Shown here piece by piece: positions 1 to 6,593 of a DNA stretch of 64,000 bases (within the stretch, counting starts at the first letter, position 1; every line of letters begins with the position of its first letter). Made by a program: the position numbers and the translations under genes. Source of the stretch: Parolsenella massiliensis. GTDB lineage: Bacteria > Actinomycetota > Coriobacteriia > Coriobacteriales > Atopobiaceae. Location of the stretch: NCBI RefSeq assembly GCF_900143685.1, contig NZ_LT671675.1, positions 1,109,985-1,173,984 of the forward strand, in the 5' to 3' direction. The notes beneath the pieces are model-generated. The model was not told the DNA's origin, searched no databases, and saw only the letters and a program-made list of their open reading frames with translations.

Positions 1-1243
1 ACGCTAAATGGCTATTTAGCTGCGTGAGGTCAACCTTCGAAACGTCGATTTCGCCTGACATCAGCTTGGGGAGAAGAGAGTCTCGAAGGATGGCGAGCTC
101 TCGGTTTTCTCGCTCAAGCGTTTCTTGCTGCTTAAGAATAGGCTCTGCAAAAGAGCCGAACTCGGCACATAGTGCTTGTTCGGGAATGGCAAGCTCAACC
201 GACTTCATCATCTTGCCTGAGACTTCGGGAAAGGTCGTTCCTGCCCCCATATCGGCTATTCGCTGCTTGTTTCTAACCAAAAAACAATAGACGAACGCAG
301 TACCAATCTCTTCCTTCGGAACGACGGACTTGAATCCTTGGTTTGTAGCTACCTCATCCGCCGCGATCGCTACGTAGCCTATTGGGGCGCGCGAACTAAA
401 TAGAACGCTTCCTTTGGGCAGCAGCTTTGCGCTGCACGAGGCGTAGCCCGCATCAGTTATATCGTCAGCGCCATGGGCGATGAATTTATCGCTGGTGTTC
501 GACAAGTCGCGTGGAGTAATCCAGCCGATTCCATTTGAGCAGTAATAGTCGGACCTTTTCTTTGATGGCGTTGCTCCGCCGATAACCACGCCAATATCAG
601 ACAGGATTCCAGTGAAGTCTGCGTTATCAGAGAACAGCTCGTCGTATTTTGCCAGCAGCAGCTCTTCTAAATAGCCATTTAGCCGATTGTTGAGGGCAAT
701 CTTGTTGTCAAGCGCATCAAGAATGCACGCAATCTCACGCTGCATTTCATAGGTAATATCAGGAACAAGCTCGGCAACGGCAAAGGTCTTGAACTGGAAA
801 TTGGCAAGCCCAGTAGATCTGTTCTGATAACCCCACGTTCTGCCAGCGTTGAACATGTCCTGAAGCCAGTAGTAAATGAAGCGTGAATCAATCGTGCTCT
901 GGAAACGAAGAAGTCGGCAGAAACTTGCAGGGATAACGGCACAGTCGTAGGCATCAAGAAGCTCCCGACTGATAAAGACCGTTCTTCCTGTCGGCCTTGT
1001 GTCCGTTCCGCCAGAGTTTTCAAGAACAATATCTCCAGGCCGCAAAGCGACGCTCTGAACCTTTGCTTCTTTTTCAAAGCGAATCGGAAGCCCGTCGAAA
1101 TGACCTTGTTCGATTGATGGAAAATCAGCCCCTCGGATTATCGCGACTCGCACGGAGGAGTCGAAGGGCGTTTCCTTTCCCCAGCCTCCGCCACGAGAGC
1201 GCTCCAGCAGTTCGCCAATTGGAATTGAGGGGTTAAAACCCAT
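1..1243 (-). CDS. hsdS: Type I restriction-modification specificity subunit HsdS (3' end beyond window)
   Basis: This is the DNA-recognition subunit of the type I system. The frame is open from ATG at 1243 to the window edge (414 codons visible) and starts 11 nt inside the end of hsdM, so it is translationally coupled. Two target-recognition domains can be seen, roughly residues 1-160 and 215-360, each followed by a conserved helix: QREIACILDALDNKI...RLNGYLEELL in the centre, and LERENRELAILRDSLLPKL near the end. The C-terminal SGEIDVS pattern is typical of the last residues of HsdS, so little is missing. In-frame copies of a 17-bp inverted repeat lie at codons 188-193 and at the last visible codons (409-414), which suggests recombination of the second half. 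Family assignment is firm; the invertibility is inference. Confidence 0.9.
   Translation of the reverse strand, partial: MGFNPSIPIGELLERSRGGGWGKETPFDSSVRVAIIRGADFPSIEQGHFDGLPIRFEKEAKVQSVALRPGDIVLENSGGTDTRPTGRTVFISRELLDAYDCAVIPASFCRLLRFQSTIDSRFIYYWLQDMFNAGRTWGYQNRSTGLANFQFKTFAVAELVPDITYEMQREIACILDALDNKIALNNRLNGYLEELLLAKYDELFSDNADFTGILSDIGVVIGGATPSKKRSDYYCSNGIGWITPRDLSNTSDKFIAHGADDITDAGYASCSAKLLPKGSVLFSSRAPIGYVAIAADEVATNQGFKSVVPKEEIGTAFVYCFLVRNKQRIADMGAGTTFPEVSGKMMKSVELAIPEQALCAEFGSFAEPILKQQETLERENRELAILRDSLLPKLMSGEIDVSKVDLTQLNSHLA
3..19. repeat. Inverted repeat copy A at the 3' end of hsdS
   Basis: GCTAAATGGCTATTTAG on the plus strand. It matches the minus strand at 667-683 exactly over 17 bp. 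Together with base 20 it forms 7-bp palindromic arms (GCTAAAT/ATTTAGC) around an asymmetric 4-base centre GGCT. On plus, the frame running in from the left edge would read LNGYLAA and then stop at 25-27. Confidence 0.75.
667..683. repeat. Inverted repeat copy B in the central conserved region of hsdS
   Basis: Exact reverse complement of 3-19, lying in the segment that encodes RLNGYLE between the two recognition domains. The position, between TRD1 and TRD2, is where known shuffling HsdS systems place their recombination sites. The 647 bp between the copies hold TRD2 and the C-terminal helix. Confidence 0.75.
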
Positions 1244-2747
1244 ACCCAATCGCCTCCAGGTTCTTCTTGATCTGTTCCTGCAGGCGATTGGACTCCTCGA
1301 AGCACTTGGAAATCTCGCTAGTCAGACGCGCCATCTTCTCCTCGAAGGGCTCGCCGTCGTCCTCGACCTCGGCTATGCCCACGTAGCGGCCGGGCGTCAG
1401 AATAAAGTCCTGCTTCGCGATATCGTCAATGGTCGCGACAGCCGAGAAACCCTTCTCCTCTTCGAGCTCTCCCCCACGGAACGCCTCAAAGGCACCGGCG
1501 ACCTTGGCAATGTCCTCTTCCGTGAACTCACGCAGCTTGCGAGTAACCATCGTGCCCATCTCACGGGCATCAATGAAGAGCGTCTTTCCGGGCTGCACCT
1601 TCTTCTTGTTCAAAATCCACAGGCAAACGGGAATCTGTGTACTGTAAAAAAGCTGTCCAGGCATGGCAACAATGCCCTCAACAAGGTCGTCCTCCACGAT
1701 GGCGCGGCGGATGTCGCCCTCACCACTCGTCTGGCTTGAGAGGGAGCCGTTCGCAAGCACTAGGCCAATCTTCCCCGAGCTGTTCAGGTGCCAAATCATG
1801 TGCTGCATCCAGGCAAAGTTGGCATTACCGGTAGGAGGTACACCATATTTCCAGCGAACGTCTTCCTGCAGGCTTTCGCCGCCCCAATTCTTCAGATTAA
1901 AGGGAGGGTTCGCCAGGATATAGTCAAACTTCTCGTTTTTGTGTTGATCAGCGCTAAAGGTATCATCGTAGGTACCAAGGTCCGCCTCAATGCCGCGGAT
2001 GCCCAGGTTCATCTTGGCAAGCTTCCATGTGGTGGGATTGCTCTCCTGGCCAAAGATTGTGATGTCCTGCACTACGTTGCCGCCGTGGTGCTCAACGAAA
2101 GAGGCAGACTGTACGAACATGCCGCCCGAACCGCAACAGGGGTCATAGACGCGCCCATGGAACGGCTGGAGAATCTCCACGAGCGTGCGAACGATGCAGG
2201 AAGGCGTATAGAACTCGCCAGCGTTCTTACCCTCCATCGAGGCGAACTTCTGCAGGCAGTACTCATAGGCGCGGCCCAGAAGATCCTTCTCGCTCTCTCC
2301 GTCAGTCATCTGAACGTTGGTGAACAGGTCGACTACCTCACCCAGACGTCGCTTGTCCAGCTCGGGACGAGAGAAGTTCTTGGGAAGTACGTCCTTGAGC
2401 TTGTCGTTCTCTCGCTCGATGGCGCGCATGGCACCATCGATGAGCTGACCTATCTCGGGCGTGTGAGCCGCCTCCGCTATCTTTGACCAACGCGCTTCCT
2501 CCGGAACGAAGAAAACGTTCTGCTCCGTATAGCAGTCGCGATCCTCTTCGTCGCCATACCCCTCGGCGACAAGTTCTTGATAGCGTTCATCGAAGCGATC
2601 AGATAGGTACTTTAGAAAGATGAGACCAAGAACGACATTCTTGTACTCAGTGGCATCAAGATTGCCTCGAAGCACGTCAGCAGCCTTCCAGAGCTGTTCT
2701 TCGAAGCCGAGATCAGCAGTATTCTTGTCGCTCTTATTTTTAGCCAT
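1233..2747 (-). CDS. hsdM: Type I restriction-modification DNA methyltransferase subunit HsdM
   Basis: Adenine-N6 methyltransferase subunit; with HsdS it forms the methylase and with HsdR the restriction complex. At 504 aa it has normal family length. It shows an N-terminal helical HsdM_N region (about 10-145), the AdoMet-binding motif DPCCGSGGM at 202-210 and the catalytic NPPF motif at 280-283, inside the N6-adenine methyltransferase fold, and a C-terminal helical tail (VGIAEVEDDGEPFEEKMARL). The start ATG at 2747 lies 11 nt downstream of the accessory gene, and the stop overlaps the hsdS start. GC content is visibly lower than in the cell-division genes, as is common for acquired restriction systems. 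Confidence 0.95.
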   Translation of the reverse strand: MAKNKSDKNTADLGFEEQLWKAADVLRGNLDATEYKNVVLGLIFLKYLSDRFDERYQELVAEGYGDEEDRDCYTEQNVFFVPEEARWSKIAEAAHTPEIGQLIDGAMRAIERENDKLKDVLPKNFSRPELDKRRLGEVVDLFTNVQMTDGESEKDLLGRAYEYCLQKFASMEGKNAGEFYTPSCIVRTLVEILQPFHGRVYDPCCGSGGMFVQSASFVEHHGGNVVQDITIFGQESNPTTWKLAKMNLGIRGIEADLGTYDDTFSADQHKNEKFDYILANPPFNLKNWGGESLQEDVRWKYGVPPTGNANFAWMQHMIWHLNSSGKIGLVLANGSLSSQTSGEGDIRRAIVEDDLVEGIVAMPGQLFYSTQIPVCLWILNKKKVQPGKTLFIDAREMGTMVTRKLREFTEEDIAKVAGAFEAFRGGELEEEKGFSAVATIDDIAKQDFILTPGRYVGIAEVEDDGEPFEEKMARLTSEISKCFEESNRLQEQIKKNLEAIGYGF

Positions 2748-2758
2748 AACTTGGGTCC

Positions 2759-3424
2759 TTATTCCTCGTCTGATGACGCGTTATAGGATTGATCAGCCTG
2801 CAAGAGGTCACACAGTGCGGACCTCTTATTCTCTAGCTCGCCCAATGTGCATGGATACAGATACAGGTGAACGTTCTGCTCGTACTTCACGTCTGCATAC
2901 ACGTCAGGATTCCCGGAACGAGAACAGGCTAGATCGATCGCCTCACCTACGTTCGCACCCGCACCCACATAAACTCCCGTATAGTCGGTCAGGTCATTAT
3001 CGAAATCGAACTTGGAATAGGTTGCGATAGCAAAGCAACCCGGCGAGTCAAAAAGCCCAGAGGAGACAACCGCAGCGGCCTCCCTGCCACCGTCTCGCAG
3101 CTTGAAATACTCTTTGACTGGAACAGAGCGGCTGGCGTTTACGAGAACCGTCTGTTGAGCCTGCTTGAGAGCCCTGGCAAGATCCCGCTCCTCTTTCTTC
3201 GCTCTTCGCGAGTCAAAAAAGGAATCTCTTGCCGAGGCGGCTTTGTCTGCAATCCCCGCAATGGCACCCTTTGCTTTATCGGCAACTTCCTTACCTTCTT
3301 CGGAGTCCAATACGGGCTGAACGGAGTCCTTGAGGCTTCCAACAGCGCCAACTACCGTCGTTGCCGCCGCAATTATCTGAGCAGCCGTCTTCAGACCCTT
3401 GACGTACGCGTTTACAGCAGCCAT
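2759..3424 (-). CDS. GIY-YIG nuclease-like protein in the hsd operon
   Basis: 221 aa protein placed between hsdR and hsdM with 11-13 nt gaps, so co-transcribed. The first 60 residues are Ala/Gly-rich and amphipathic (AAQIIAAATTVVGAVGSL), then comes a charged helical stretch (65-92). The C-terminal part resembles a degenerate GIY-YIG fold: PGCFAIATY (128-136) in place of the GIY strand, YTGVYVGAGANVGEAI (148-163) in place of YIG, DVYADVKY (174-181), and a glutamate in GELENKRSAL (195-204). I recall similar DVYADIKY-type GIY-YIG proteins in Gram-positives but cannot check this here. Function with the restriction system is unknown: it could be a nuclease, a regulator or unrelated cargo. Confidence 0.5.
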   Translation of the reverse strand: MAAVNAYVKGLKTAAQIIAAATTVVGAVGSLKDSVQPVLDSEEGKEVADKAKGAIAGIADKAASARDSFFDSRRAKKEERDLARALKQAQQTVLVNASRSVPVKEYFKLRDGGREAAAVVSSGLFDSPGCFAIATYSKFDFDNDLTDYTGVYVGAGANVGEAIDLACSRSGNPDVYADVKYEQNVHLYLYPCTLGELENKRSALCDLLQADQSYNASSDEE

Positions 3425-3437
3425 GGCCTAACCCTCC

Positions 3438-6400
3438 TTAGGCAGCATTATCCGCCCAGAGCTCACACTGTTCCATCACGGTAGACAGGGCATACTCCAT
3501 GCCCTCGGGCGGATACTTATGATGTTTCAACAAGCGCTTGATTGCCACGCGCATAGCAGCACGGGCACTCTGTTTCTTTTGCCAGTCTACCGTCCTCATT
3601 TCACGCATCTTTGCGGCTAGCTCCTGAGTAATAGCCACGAGTTCGTCATTTCTCCCGCGATAATAGTCAGCAACAGCTTGCGGCTGAGTCAATGCGCCAT
3701 AAAACGCGAACTCCTCATCAGTTAGGCCAAGATCCTTAGCCCGCTGATTCTCAGAGAGCATCTCTCTAGCCATCTTGAGCATTTCCTCAAACACCTCAGC
3801 GTTTGTAAGTTGCCCATTCAGGTAGCCATTCACCATGCCCCGCATGAGTTCCGAATACTTTTTAGCCTGAGTTACGCTCTTCTTTCGATACCCCTTGATT
3901 TGGTCGTCAATGAGCTTTTTGAGAAGCTCATATGCCAAGTTACGCTCCTTCATATGCGATAGGCTTGCAATAAACTTGGGATCAAAGACAGAAACGGTCT
4001 CGTCCTCAACTTTGAACAGGTCAATGACTCCATCGGTATGGACGATATTCTGTTCGAGCAAAGCAGTGATGCGTTTGTTAACCTGTTTGAGCGTCAACTT
4101 CTTACCTTCGCTGGCGCCATGGCCTCCCCCTTGCTCCGTAAGCTGCAAAATGAGCTCACGAACAACCTGGAAGTAGCCGGCTTCAATTCTCTGTGCGTCG
4201 GTTGCACGGCTCTTCGCCAGACCATATGCCTTGAGCATGATTCCCGCTTGCTCTACAAAGTCACGCGCCGTATCTTCATCGCCAGGTGCCAGCACATGAT
4301 TGACACCACCCGTAATGAGCTCGCTCCTACGTGCGGCAGAATCAGTAGACATGAACTCCGCATAGTCGAAACCAAACATTTTGTCGCGACAAACCGCAAG
4401 CTTTTCCAGGAACTTGGGATAAGCCGTCTTGCCAATATCCATGTCCCCGTACTTTTTCTGGTCGCGCTTGGTGTAGTCCTTCATCGCACGTTTTAACGCA
4501 TTTGCGATGCCCACATAGTCAACGACCAGTCCGCCTTCCTTGTCCTTATAGACACGGTTGACACGGGCGATTGCCTGCATCAAGTTGTAGCCCTTCATGG
4601 GCTTATAGACATACATCGTTGCAAGACTGGGGACATCAAAACCCGTAAGCCACATATCCACGACGATGACGATTTTTAGAGAATCGTTATCGTCCTTGAA
4701 ACGTTTGGCCATCTCTTTGACGTGGGCTTTGTTTCCAACGACATCAAACCACCACTCGGGGTCCTGGTTGCCCATGGTCATGACAACGCCTAGCTTGCCT
4801 TCTTCCTTCCATGAAGGCCGAAGCTCGCACATACGCTGATAGATTGCCATTGCCGCAGGGCGCGAGTACGCGACGATCATCGCCTTGCCAGTTAGCTCGT
4901 GGGCTCGATTAGTCTCGTAATGCTTGACGATGTCCTGGCAAAGGGCATCAATAACTTCGGGAGCACCAAGCACGGCATCAAGATTGGCAAAGCTCCGCTT
5001 GCTAGCATCGATGGTCTCGGCGTTCGCCTGTTCGGTTAGCTCCTCGTATTCGCTATCTACCTTGGCAAGAATGCCCTGGTCAAGCTTGAGAGCAACAACA
5101 CGACTCTCATAGAACACGGGACGCGTGGCATTGTCCTCAACCGCCTGAGTCATGTCATAGACGTCAATGTAGTCGCCAAACACCTCGCGCGTCGAACGAT
5201 CCTCCACCGAAATGGGCGTTCCGGTAAAGCCGATAAATGTGGCGTGCGGGAGGGCTCGACGGATTAGCAGCGCCGTTCCCGTGTGTTTTGTTCCATCGCG
5301 GTCAAATCTCTCTTCAAAACCATACTGGCCACGATGCGCTTCGTCGACCATCACCACAACGTTCTCGCGGTCAGAAAGGGCGGATTCCTCCTCCTCAAAC
5401 TTCTGCATTGTGGTGAAGATGATTCCGTTAGCTCGACGACTGGCAATCCGCCTCGAAAGATCAGCACGACTCTGGGCTTGAACCGGCGTTTGACGAAGAA
5501 AATCCGAGCACCTGGAAAATTGAGCGAACAGCTGGGAGTCAAGATCGTTGCGGTCGGTAATAACCACAATGGTTGGGCTATTCAGTCTCTCCTCTAGGAG
5601 GTGAGCCAAAAACACCATTGAGAGAGACTTGCCAGAACCTTGCGTATGCCAGAACACACCGCCTTTTCCATTGCCTCCAATAGCCTCTTGGACGCTCTCA
5701 AGAGCCTTATTGACAGCAAAGAACTGATGATAGCCTGCGAGAATCTTTGCGTCATCGGAATACAGCATGAAGTTCTTAACAATGTCTACGAGGCGAGCCT
5801 TTGGAAACATGCCGGCAAGGGGCGTCTTCCAATCGGCGAATTGGGTTGCCTCGTAGCTGCCGTCGGCGCTCTTCCATTCAACGAAGCGAGATTCGTTGGA
5901 TGTGATGGTGCCGACTTTTGTGTGCAGCATGTCACTAATGACGCAAAAGGCGTTATATAAAAACAGTGATGGTATCTGCTTCTTGTAGTTTTGAATTTGC
6001 TGATAAGCGTCGGCGTCGTCCGCTTCAGCGCGAGCAGGAGATTTAAGCTCAAACAAAACGAGCGGCAAGCCGTTAACGAAAACGATAACATCCGGGCGTT
6101 TATTGGTCCCTTGCTCTATGAACGTCCACTGGTTCACAACATGAAACGCGTTTCGCTCCGGTCGGTCAAAGTCAACAAGACGCACCAAATCGGTCCTGTC
6201 TTCTTTGCCATCAAACCAACGAACCTCAACTCCGTTCTGGAGCAGGTCCATAAAAGCTCTGTTCTTTGCAACAAGGGAGCCACCCTCGATTTCTTTGAGC
6301 TGAGTAATCGCTGTTTCAATGGCCCTACGACCGAGATTTGGATTGATTGATTCCAAGGCAGAAGGAAGGACATCGGGCAAAAAGGCATCATCAAATGCAT

Positions 6401-6530
6401 CGCTCGACCGCGCAACTTCAGGCCCGTAAAGATACTCGTATCCCTGTTCGGAGCATAGGTAATCAATGATGCCCTGTTCGAATGAATCCTCGTTATATGA
6501 GAGGGCTGAGCTGTACTCCGTAATGTTCAT
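3438..6530 (-). CDS. hsdR: Type I restriction endonuclease subunit HsdR
   Basis: ATP-dependent translocase and nuclease subunit. From ATG at 6530 the protein is 1030 aa, normal for the family. Visible parts are a PD-(D/E)xK nuclease domain (D147 in RPDVIVFVNG, E161-L-K163 in LFELKSP), Walker A TQGSGKS at about 296-302, the helicase DEAH box at about 396-399, GFTGTP, and later superfamily-2 motifs (WLTGFDVPSL, QAIARVNR). I prefer 6530 over a GTG at 6572 because AAGGGG sits 5 nt upstream of it. First gene of the four-gene hsd operon. Confidence 0.94.
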   Translation of the reverse strand: MNITEYSSALSYNEDSFEQGIIDYLCSEQGYEYLYGPEVARSSDAFDDAFLPDVLPSALESINPNLGRRAIETAITQLKEIEGGSLVAKNRAFMDLLQNGVEVRWFDGKEDRTDLVRLVDFDRPERNAFHVVNQWTFIEQGTNKRPDVIVFVNGLPLVLFELKSPARAEADDADAYQQIQNYKKQIPSLFLYNAFCVISDMLHTKVGTITSNESRFVEWKSADGSYEATQFADWKTPLAGMFPKARLVDIVKNFMLYSDDAKILAGYHQFFAVNKALESVQEAIGGNGKGGVFWHTQGSGKSLSMVFLAHLLEERLNSPTIVVITDRNDLDSQLFAQFSRCSDFLRQTPVQAQSRADLSRRIASRRANGIIFTTMQKFEEEESALSDRENVVVMVDEAHRGQYGFEERFDRDGTKHTGTALLIRRALPHATFIGFTGTPISVEDRSTREVFGDYIDVYDMTQAVEDNATRPVFYESRVVALKLDQGILAKVDSEYEELTEQANAETIDASKRSFANLDAVLGAPEVIDALCQDIVKHYETNRAHELTGKAMIVAYSRPAAMAIYQRMCELRPSWKEEGKLGVVMTMGNQDPEWWFDVVGNKAHVKEMAKRFKDDNDSLKIVIVVDMWLTGFDVPSLATMYVYKPMKGYNLMQAIARVNRVYKDKEGGLVVDYVGIANALKRAMKDYTKRDQKKYGDMDIGKTAYPKFLEKLAVCRDKMFGFDYAEFMSTDSAARRSELITGGVNHVLAPGDEDTARDFVEQAGIMLKAYGLAKSRATDAQRIEAGYFQVVRELILQLTEQGGGHGASEGKKLTLKQVNKRITALLEQNIVHTDGVIDLFKVEDETVSVFDPKFIASLSHMKERNLAYELLKKLIDDQIKGYRKKSVTQAKKYSELMRGMVNGYLNGQLTNAEVFEEMLKMAREMLSENQRAKDLGLTDEEFAFYGALTQPQAVADYYRGRNDELVAITQELAAKMREMRTVDWQKKQSARAAMRVAIKRLLKHHKYPPEGMEYALSTVMEQCELWADNAA

Positions 6531-6593
6531 AAGAACCCCTTGACGGGACAAATCGAATTCGATCAAAGACACACTCGAACCAGCATGTCTCGC

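Follow-up and report, generated by a model that had tools for sequence, protein, structure and literature searches.

The type I restriction-modification (R-M) locus of Parolsenella massiliensis described here very likely harbors a real TRD2 shuttle, and switching in this strain is predicted by homology. We are highly confident of the model as a whole, in which one cassette (B) shuttles between two facing hsdS heads and larger inversions recruit a second cassette (A). In this model the core TAAATGGCTATTTA occurs four times, with alternating direction, and delimits a series of elements that begins on the left with the silent cassette A. Module M, composed of a tyrosine recombinase gene and headL, comes next, then cassette B, and last headR, which is encoded on the opposite strand and linked to hsdM and hsdR. 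Cassette B lies between the two facing heads, and an inversion of B between its two sites would move the tail from headR to headL. With the neighboring recombinase acting, such a flip of the tail would change the DNA target of the restriction enzyme. The head that gains the tail would encode a complete HsdS of 416 or 403 aa, and the other would meet a stop two codons beyond the site and end at 196 or 181 aa. Cassette A would be recruited by larger inversions, between the outermost sites or of module M, and two heads combined with two tails could give four HsdS proteins.

The type I R-M locus and its recombination sites

The window, a stretch of 64,000 nucleotides (G000:C1:1109985-1173984) of a single 2,009,306-base contig, starts inside a minus-strand type I R-M locus. 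The DNA to the left was read in the overlapping stretch L013 (1092001-1112000), in which window position p corresponds to p+17984. The following features were assigned; coordinates without prefix refer to the window.

2-1249, minus strand: hsdS, open reading frame of 416 aa; in the present orientation headR plus cassette B, complete
684-1249, minus strand: headR, the hsdS part with TRD1 and the first half of the central helix; overlaps hsdM
3-683, minus strand: cassette B, the shuttle, with TRD2 and the C-terminal conserved region; now read by the hsdM-linked head
3-19, plus strand: site s3, GCTAAATGGCTATTTAG, C-terminal end of cassette B; would close the facing head as LNGYLAA-stop
667-683, minus strand: site s4, inverted copy between TRD1 and TRD2; encodes LNGYL in the central helix
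1233-2747, minus strand: hsdM, type I N6-adenine methyltransferase, 504 aa; Pfam N6_Mtase 2.1e-106 and HsdM_N 1.6e-31
2759-3424, minus strand: open reading frame of 221 aa between hsdM and hsdR, without Pfam or PADLOC match
3438-6572, minus strand: hsdR, type I restriction subunit, 1044 aa; HSDR_N, SWI2_SNF2 and T1RH-like_C; TIGR00348 1.3e-168
L013:14614-15159, plus strand: headL, 181 aa, TRD1 and half of the central helix; its ATG overlaps the recombinase stop (ATGA)
L013:13631-14617: tyrosine recombinase gene, 328 aa; Phage_integrase 8.5e-31, XerA/XerC/XerD models
L013:12283-12923: silent TRD2 cassette A, headless, with the same bounding sites as cassette B

The presence of hsdR, hsdM and an hsdS with two TRDs in a single locus identifies the system as type I. 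PADLOC recognized the 416-aa hsdS product as Specificity_I (1.3e-106, residues 9-404), the cassette B part matched Pfam Methylase_S (1.4e-25, residues 216-357 of HsdS), and the fold of the product matches the HsdS structures 1yf2, 5ybb, 3okg, 7vs4 and 7bst. The end of the frame, read in the left contig copy of the cassette, is DLTQLNSHLA-stop.

The sequence-only reading had placed a facing hsdS head just to the left of the window and proposed to look there for a convergent hsdS half and a recombinase gene. Both are present and adjoin each other; the half hsdS on the plus strand ends with TKLNGYLAA*. Alignment of the recombinase to solved XerA-type proteins revealed that the catalytic R, K, HxxR, H and Y are all kept. 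The silent cassette A, a spare tail, is an element beyond that prediction. PADLOC assigned headL to the N-terminal half and cassette A to the C-terminal half of type I specificity subunits; neither of the two found a match in Pfam and NCBIfam.

Several further genes lie in the surroundings. A 221-aa open reading frame (L013:12920-13585) without Pfam or PADLOC match abuts silent cassette A, and to the left of this cassette a helicase C-terminal fragment (PF00271, L013:11287-12096) is apparently a broken gene. A GmrSD-type (type IV) restriction gene at L013:6985-9561, about 4 kb left of the recombinase, suggests a defence cluster. A second recombinase with 57% identity to the one of the locus is located about 140 kb away (G000:C1:1250384-1251367; L131:10312-11373). 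Its neighbors are type I-like methylase and restriction genes with at most 34% identity to this hsdM and 31% to this hsdR, and the region is possibly another switch in the same genome.

The 17-bp inverted repeat on which the sequence-only reading was built is exact, with GCTAAATGGCTATTTAG at 3-19 (plus) and an identical copy at 683-667 (minus). It is the longest separated perfect inverted repeat within window positions 1-1300. Dinucleotide-preserving shuffles of this segment reached a maximum of 16 bp in 3,000 trials, and an earlier run of 300 hit 17 bp once; a chance origin of the repeat was rejected, as 0 of the 3,000 shuffles gave at least 17 bp. Both copies are, as claimed, in frame with hsdS: LNGYL corresponds to residues 190-194, between TRD1 and TRD2, and LNSHL to residues 411-415 at the C-terminus. 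The plus-strand stop was also read correctly (TGA at 25-27, after LNGYLAA). The 7-bp dyad ascribed to each copy holds for the one at 3-20, but the other has a dyad of 6 bp. In the AlphaFold model of HsdS (mean pLDDT 80.6) the crossover point falls within a 40-residue central helix (167-206), which contains the site-encoded residues 190-194.

The core TAAATGGCTATTTA fits the form [TC]AAA[TCG]NNNNATTT[AG], which is present at the same place in relatives. The sites bounding cassettes A and B, at L013:12283, 12907 and 15135 and at window 667-683, alternate in direction (+,-,+,-); all four are uninterrupted and near identical. One 17-bp site class underlies the arrangement, and the longest exact inverted match beyond the duplicated cassette described below is 25 bp, around a site.

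These sites bear on a different explanation, namely that TRDs are exchanged by homologous recombination between hsdS copies and that the repeats are conserved coding sequence for the central helix (LNGYL or INDNL). The site does encode a conserved central-helix motif, and in some loci longer homologous stretches occur, for example 77 bp in L017. The palindromic form is, however, also kept at the C-terminal ends of the cassettes, for which disorder is predicted (residues 412-416 of the model), and at the headless outer border of silent cassette A. In addition, switching over 14-bp sites in Streptococcus suis needs xerD (PMC10790761). We regard this explanation as very improbable.

In silico inversions and the assembly gap

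For the in silico inversion of cassette B the gap and the duplicate copy of the cassette were excluded. The flip extended headL from 181 to 403 aa and shortened headR from 416 to 196 aa (ending NRLNGYLAA*), with all frames intact; the length of about 194 aa given earlier for the truncated head was slightly too low. An in silico inversion between the outermost sites joined headR in frame to cassette A. Leaving the gap out of account, the current state contains one complete hsdS, with headR and B complete and headL truncated. Beyond the earlier reading, which did not raise the point, the whole recombinase-head module likely inverts as well. Switching in the P. massiliensis strain, expression of headL and service of both products by HsdM and HsdR are inferred from homology. 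A search of viral_contigs with the exact junction of headL and site gave no match, and the only other genome of the genus that was examined contains no close recombinase.

A rival possibility is that the switch is a fossil, which once inverted and is now locked in this strain, with headL and cassette A as silent leftovers. The second orientation was not seen in the one assembly of the species examined, and the relative L019 has a recombinase gene that breaks off at about residue 293. A decaying locus should show damage to some of its recombinase, sites and frames, yet here the recombinase is intact with all catalytic residues present, the four sites are uninterrupted and near identical, and all frames work after the virtual flip. 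A locked switch therefore appears unlikely.

Another question is whether the truncated head is dead. It could be a working half-subunit which pairs with itself and provides a second, symmetric specificity. Dimerising N-terminal half S subunits have been reported for EcoR124I, and methylation of a palindromic motif was seen with a pneumococcal SpnIV protein whose C-terminal TRD is dead (PMC6265443). The position of the truncation hardly varies, at 2 residues beyond the site, and leaves about 24 residues of the 40-residue central helix in the AlphaFold model. A constant stop may, however, merely reflect a constant cassette end, and in S. suis both wild-type methylation profiles were assigned to complete HsdS proteins (PMC10790761). 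We consider a functional half-subunit unlikely.

Directly left of the window a run of 2,170 N is located (L013:15815-17984), and beyond it lies an identical second copy of cassette B (L013:15135-15814), which is continuous with headL. With the duplicate cassette and the N run in between, the exact present order from headL to headR is tentative. It is an even call whether both are the product of an assembly fault, with a single cassette B between the heads in the real chromosome. In most relatives the facing heads are separated by a single cassette of about 590-740 bp, the contigs on both sides of the gap break exactly at site borders, and sampling of about 500 kb of the genome revealed no other N run. 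On the other hand, the distance from site to site over the gap is 2,172 bp and differs by less than 2% from that across module M, 2,211 bp, and the N-free relative L170 has M twice in tandem with two different cassettes. Because of this gap length and the precedent in L170, a true tandem copy of M and B is possible. The two bases preceding the right cassette copy (ac) correspond to the outer flank of cassette A and not to the end of headL (aa), a one-base difference that is too little for inference. An assembly fault, if there is any, may have arisen at a mixed junction.

Facing heads in the Coriobacteriia

The recombinase of the locus was used as query to collect 80 genome loci, to which further members of the family and class were added. 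The automatic layout calls missed four loci (L019, L164, L169 and L170) that have insertions or lie on short contigs, and these were read by hand. All 17 Coriobacteriia loci in which hsdM could be placed show the order hsdR-hsdM-headR facing headL-recombinase. If every species is counted as a single draw, headR carries the cassette in 10 of the 17 (G000, L015, L016, L018, L132, L142, L165, L166, L169 and L171) and headL in the other seven (L017, L133, L134, L163, L164, L168 and L172). It is also on headL in L019, which has no hsdM on its contig. Where both heads are legible, the losing head meets a stop a few codons past the site, mostly 2 residues beyond the 14-bp core. A shared tail found both ways, and a losing head that ends shortly after the site, support the earlier proposal that the TRD2 module shuttles between two heads.

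The closest matches of the individual parts are spread over different relatives: headL and cassette A are 70% and 75% identical to L018, and headR plus B are 68% identical to L016. By these comparisons the modules of the P. massiliensis locus differ in history.

Some loci deviate in detail. HeadR of L132 is split by a frame break, and L134 and L169 carry extra DNA near the slot. In L019, from a Slackia MAG, the recombinase match stops at residue 293 and unrelated open reading frames precede the head gene; this locus is perhaps a locked switch. L170 (G317:C27:1-8979) contains the recombinase-head module twice in tandem, 97.8% identical and each followed by a different TRD2 cassette, an apparent array expansion. 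The genome G358 holds two switch loci, L163 and L166, with the same core TAAATGGCTATTTA and opposite orientations, and exchange between them is conceivable.

Among the open-access literature we found no papers on such a switch in Coriobacteriia. A published survey of gene-altering inversions (Milman and colleagues, 2023) may list some of these loci. If the switch is real, the Coriobacteriia, common gut and oral bacteria, have a programmed change of their methylome and of their restriction of phages and plasmids, and culture stocks are therefore probably mixtures.

Known switches and the number of complete hsdS genes

The closest experimentally proven relative is SsuCC20p, a phase-variable type I R-M system of S. 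suis and other streptococci (mBio 2023, PMC10790761), and the locus described here is a variant of this switch. SsuCC20p switches over 14-bp sites in dependence on XerD, and switching is lost in an xerD deletion; the recombinase-linked head is transcribed and methylates (PMC10790761). The recombinases of the two systems are homologous (62% identity to the one in S. suis 10581, L029), and in both each of two TRD2 cassettes is flanked by 14-bp sites that share one palindromic form. Both also have a TRD1 head behind hsdM and another directly behind the recombinase, with one complete hsdS at a time. In SsuCC20p, however, the heads are in tandem with a slot each (hsdM-head1-slot-xerD-head3-slot). 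The order here is different: the recombinase-head module is inverted, the heads use a common slot, and the second cassette sits on the far side of the recombinase.

Other known switches are more distant. The pneumococcal cod/ivr loci (SpnIII, Spn556II; PsrA/CreX) also combine a type I R-M system with a local tyrosine recombinase and exchange TRD2 over short 15-bp inverted repeats (PMC4948785, PMC7096588), but they contain three hsdS genes and three repeat classes (15, 85 and about 300 bp), two of which recombine also without PsrA, whereas the locus here has a single 17-bp class. The pneumococcal tvr locus (SpnIV, TvrR) likewise has TRD-coding segments that move and a tyrosine recombinase encoded locally (PMC6265443). 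In contrast to the alternating sites (+,-,+,-) found here, its repeats are unidirectional and it works by excision and reintegration under toxin-antitoxin control; by analogy, the tandem module copy in L170 would fit occasional excision and reintegration. The four-way inverting hsdS/hsdS' systems of the REBASE catalogue (PMC7394358) have a duplicated hsdS, inverted repeats and often a recombinase, but they carry a TRD2 on each hsdS copy and repeats also before TRD1, whereas here one TRD2 serves two heads.

Sites of the form given above surround the recombinase at corresponding places in loci of Clostridia, streptococci, Bacteroidota and Treponema. Those of S. suis 10581 (TAAATCATCATTTA/TAAATGATGATTTA) are identical to the published SsuCC20p sites, and the streptococcal switch is part of a wide family whose members have a common form of site. 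The tandem order (hsdM-head1, slot, recombinase-head3, slot) prevails in Bacillota loci. Inversion of the recombinase-head module distinguishes the Coriobacteriia and brings both heads onto one shared slot.

Enumeration of the inversions between opposite sites gave 16 states, and one complete hsdS is present in 8 of 8 facing states and in 4 of 8 tandem states; the remaining tandem states have none (two states) or two (two states). Complete hsdS genes were then counted in 42 loci whose heads were legible, drawn from several phyla; in this set, too, the losing head usually runs 2 residues beyond the 14-bp core. Exactly one was found in 22 of the 26 tandem loci, none in two and two in another two; one of the zero cases, L028, is due to a frame break. 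In the facing layout 14 of the 16 loci have one; for L034 and L132 the count is zero, as their frames are short or broken. Listed by locus, exceptions to the single complete hsdS include L061 with none and two loci with two, L072 and L063, of which L063 has a different site. With a one-sided binomial expectation of 50:50, the probability of at least 22 of 26 is about 3e-4 when the species are, as an approximation, treated as independent. An earlier pass on cassette orientations had found them opposite in 19 of 21 tandem loci and in all four combinations in facing loci.

These counts could reflect a rule across phyla of exactly one complete HsdS per chromosome, kept in the tandem layout by linked or selected double inversions and in the facing layout by geometry, with the layouts interconverting by module inversion; we would put this rule at an even chance of being correct. 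In the facing layout a single inversion is an exclusive either-or exchange, because one tail is common to two heads. It would swap the specificity and never leave zero or two complete S subunits.

The facing geometry also bears on the paired changes in S. suis, which were left unexplained by authors who saw only single complete hsdS genes (PMC10790761). We infer that two successive inversions, of the outer pair and then of the module, would yield the "TRDs switching place" reported in this species. An inverted xerD was looked for in S. suis assemblies and none was seen (PMC10790761).

Orthologous loci of Ruminococcus link the two layouts, L032 being tandem and L033 facing. Between them, collinearity is kept in the block of hsdR, hsdM and head (83% identity) and in a block on the far side (89%), whereas the recombinase block (94.5%) has the opposite direction, with an alignment that begins at a site. 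Comparison of L061 with L033 revealed the same inversion of the module relative to four collinear flanking blocks.
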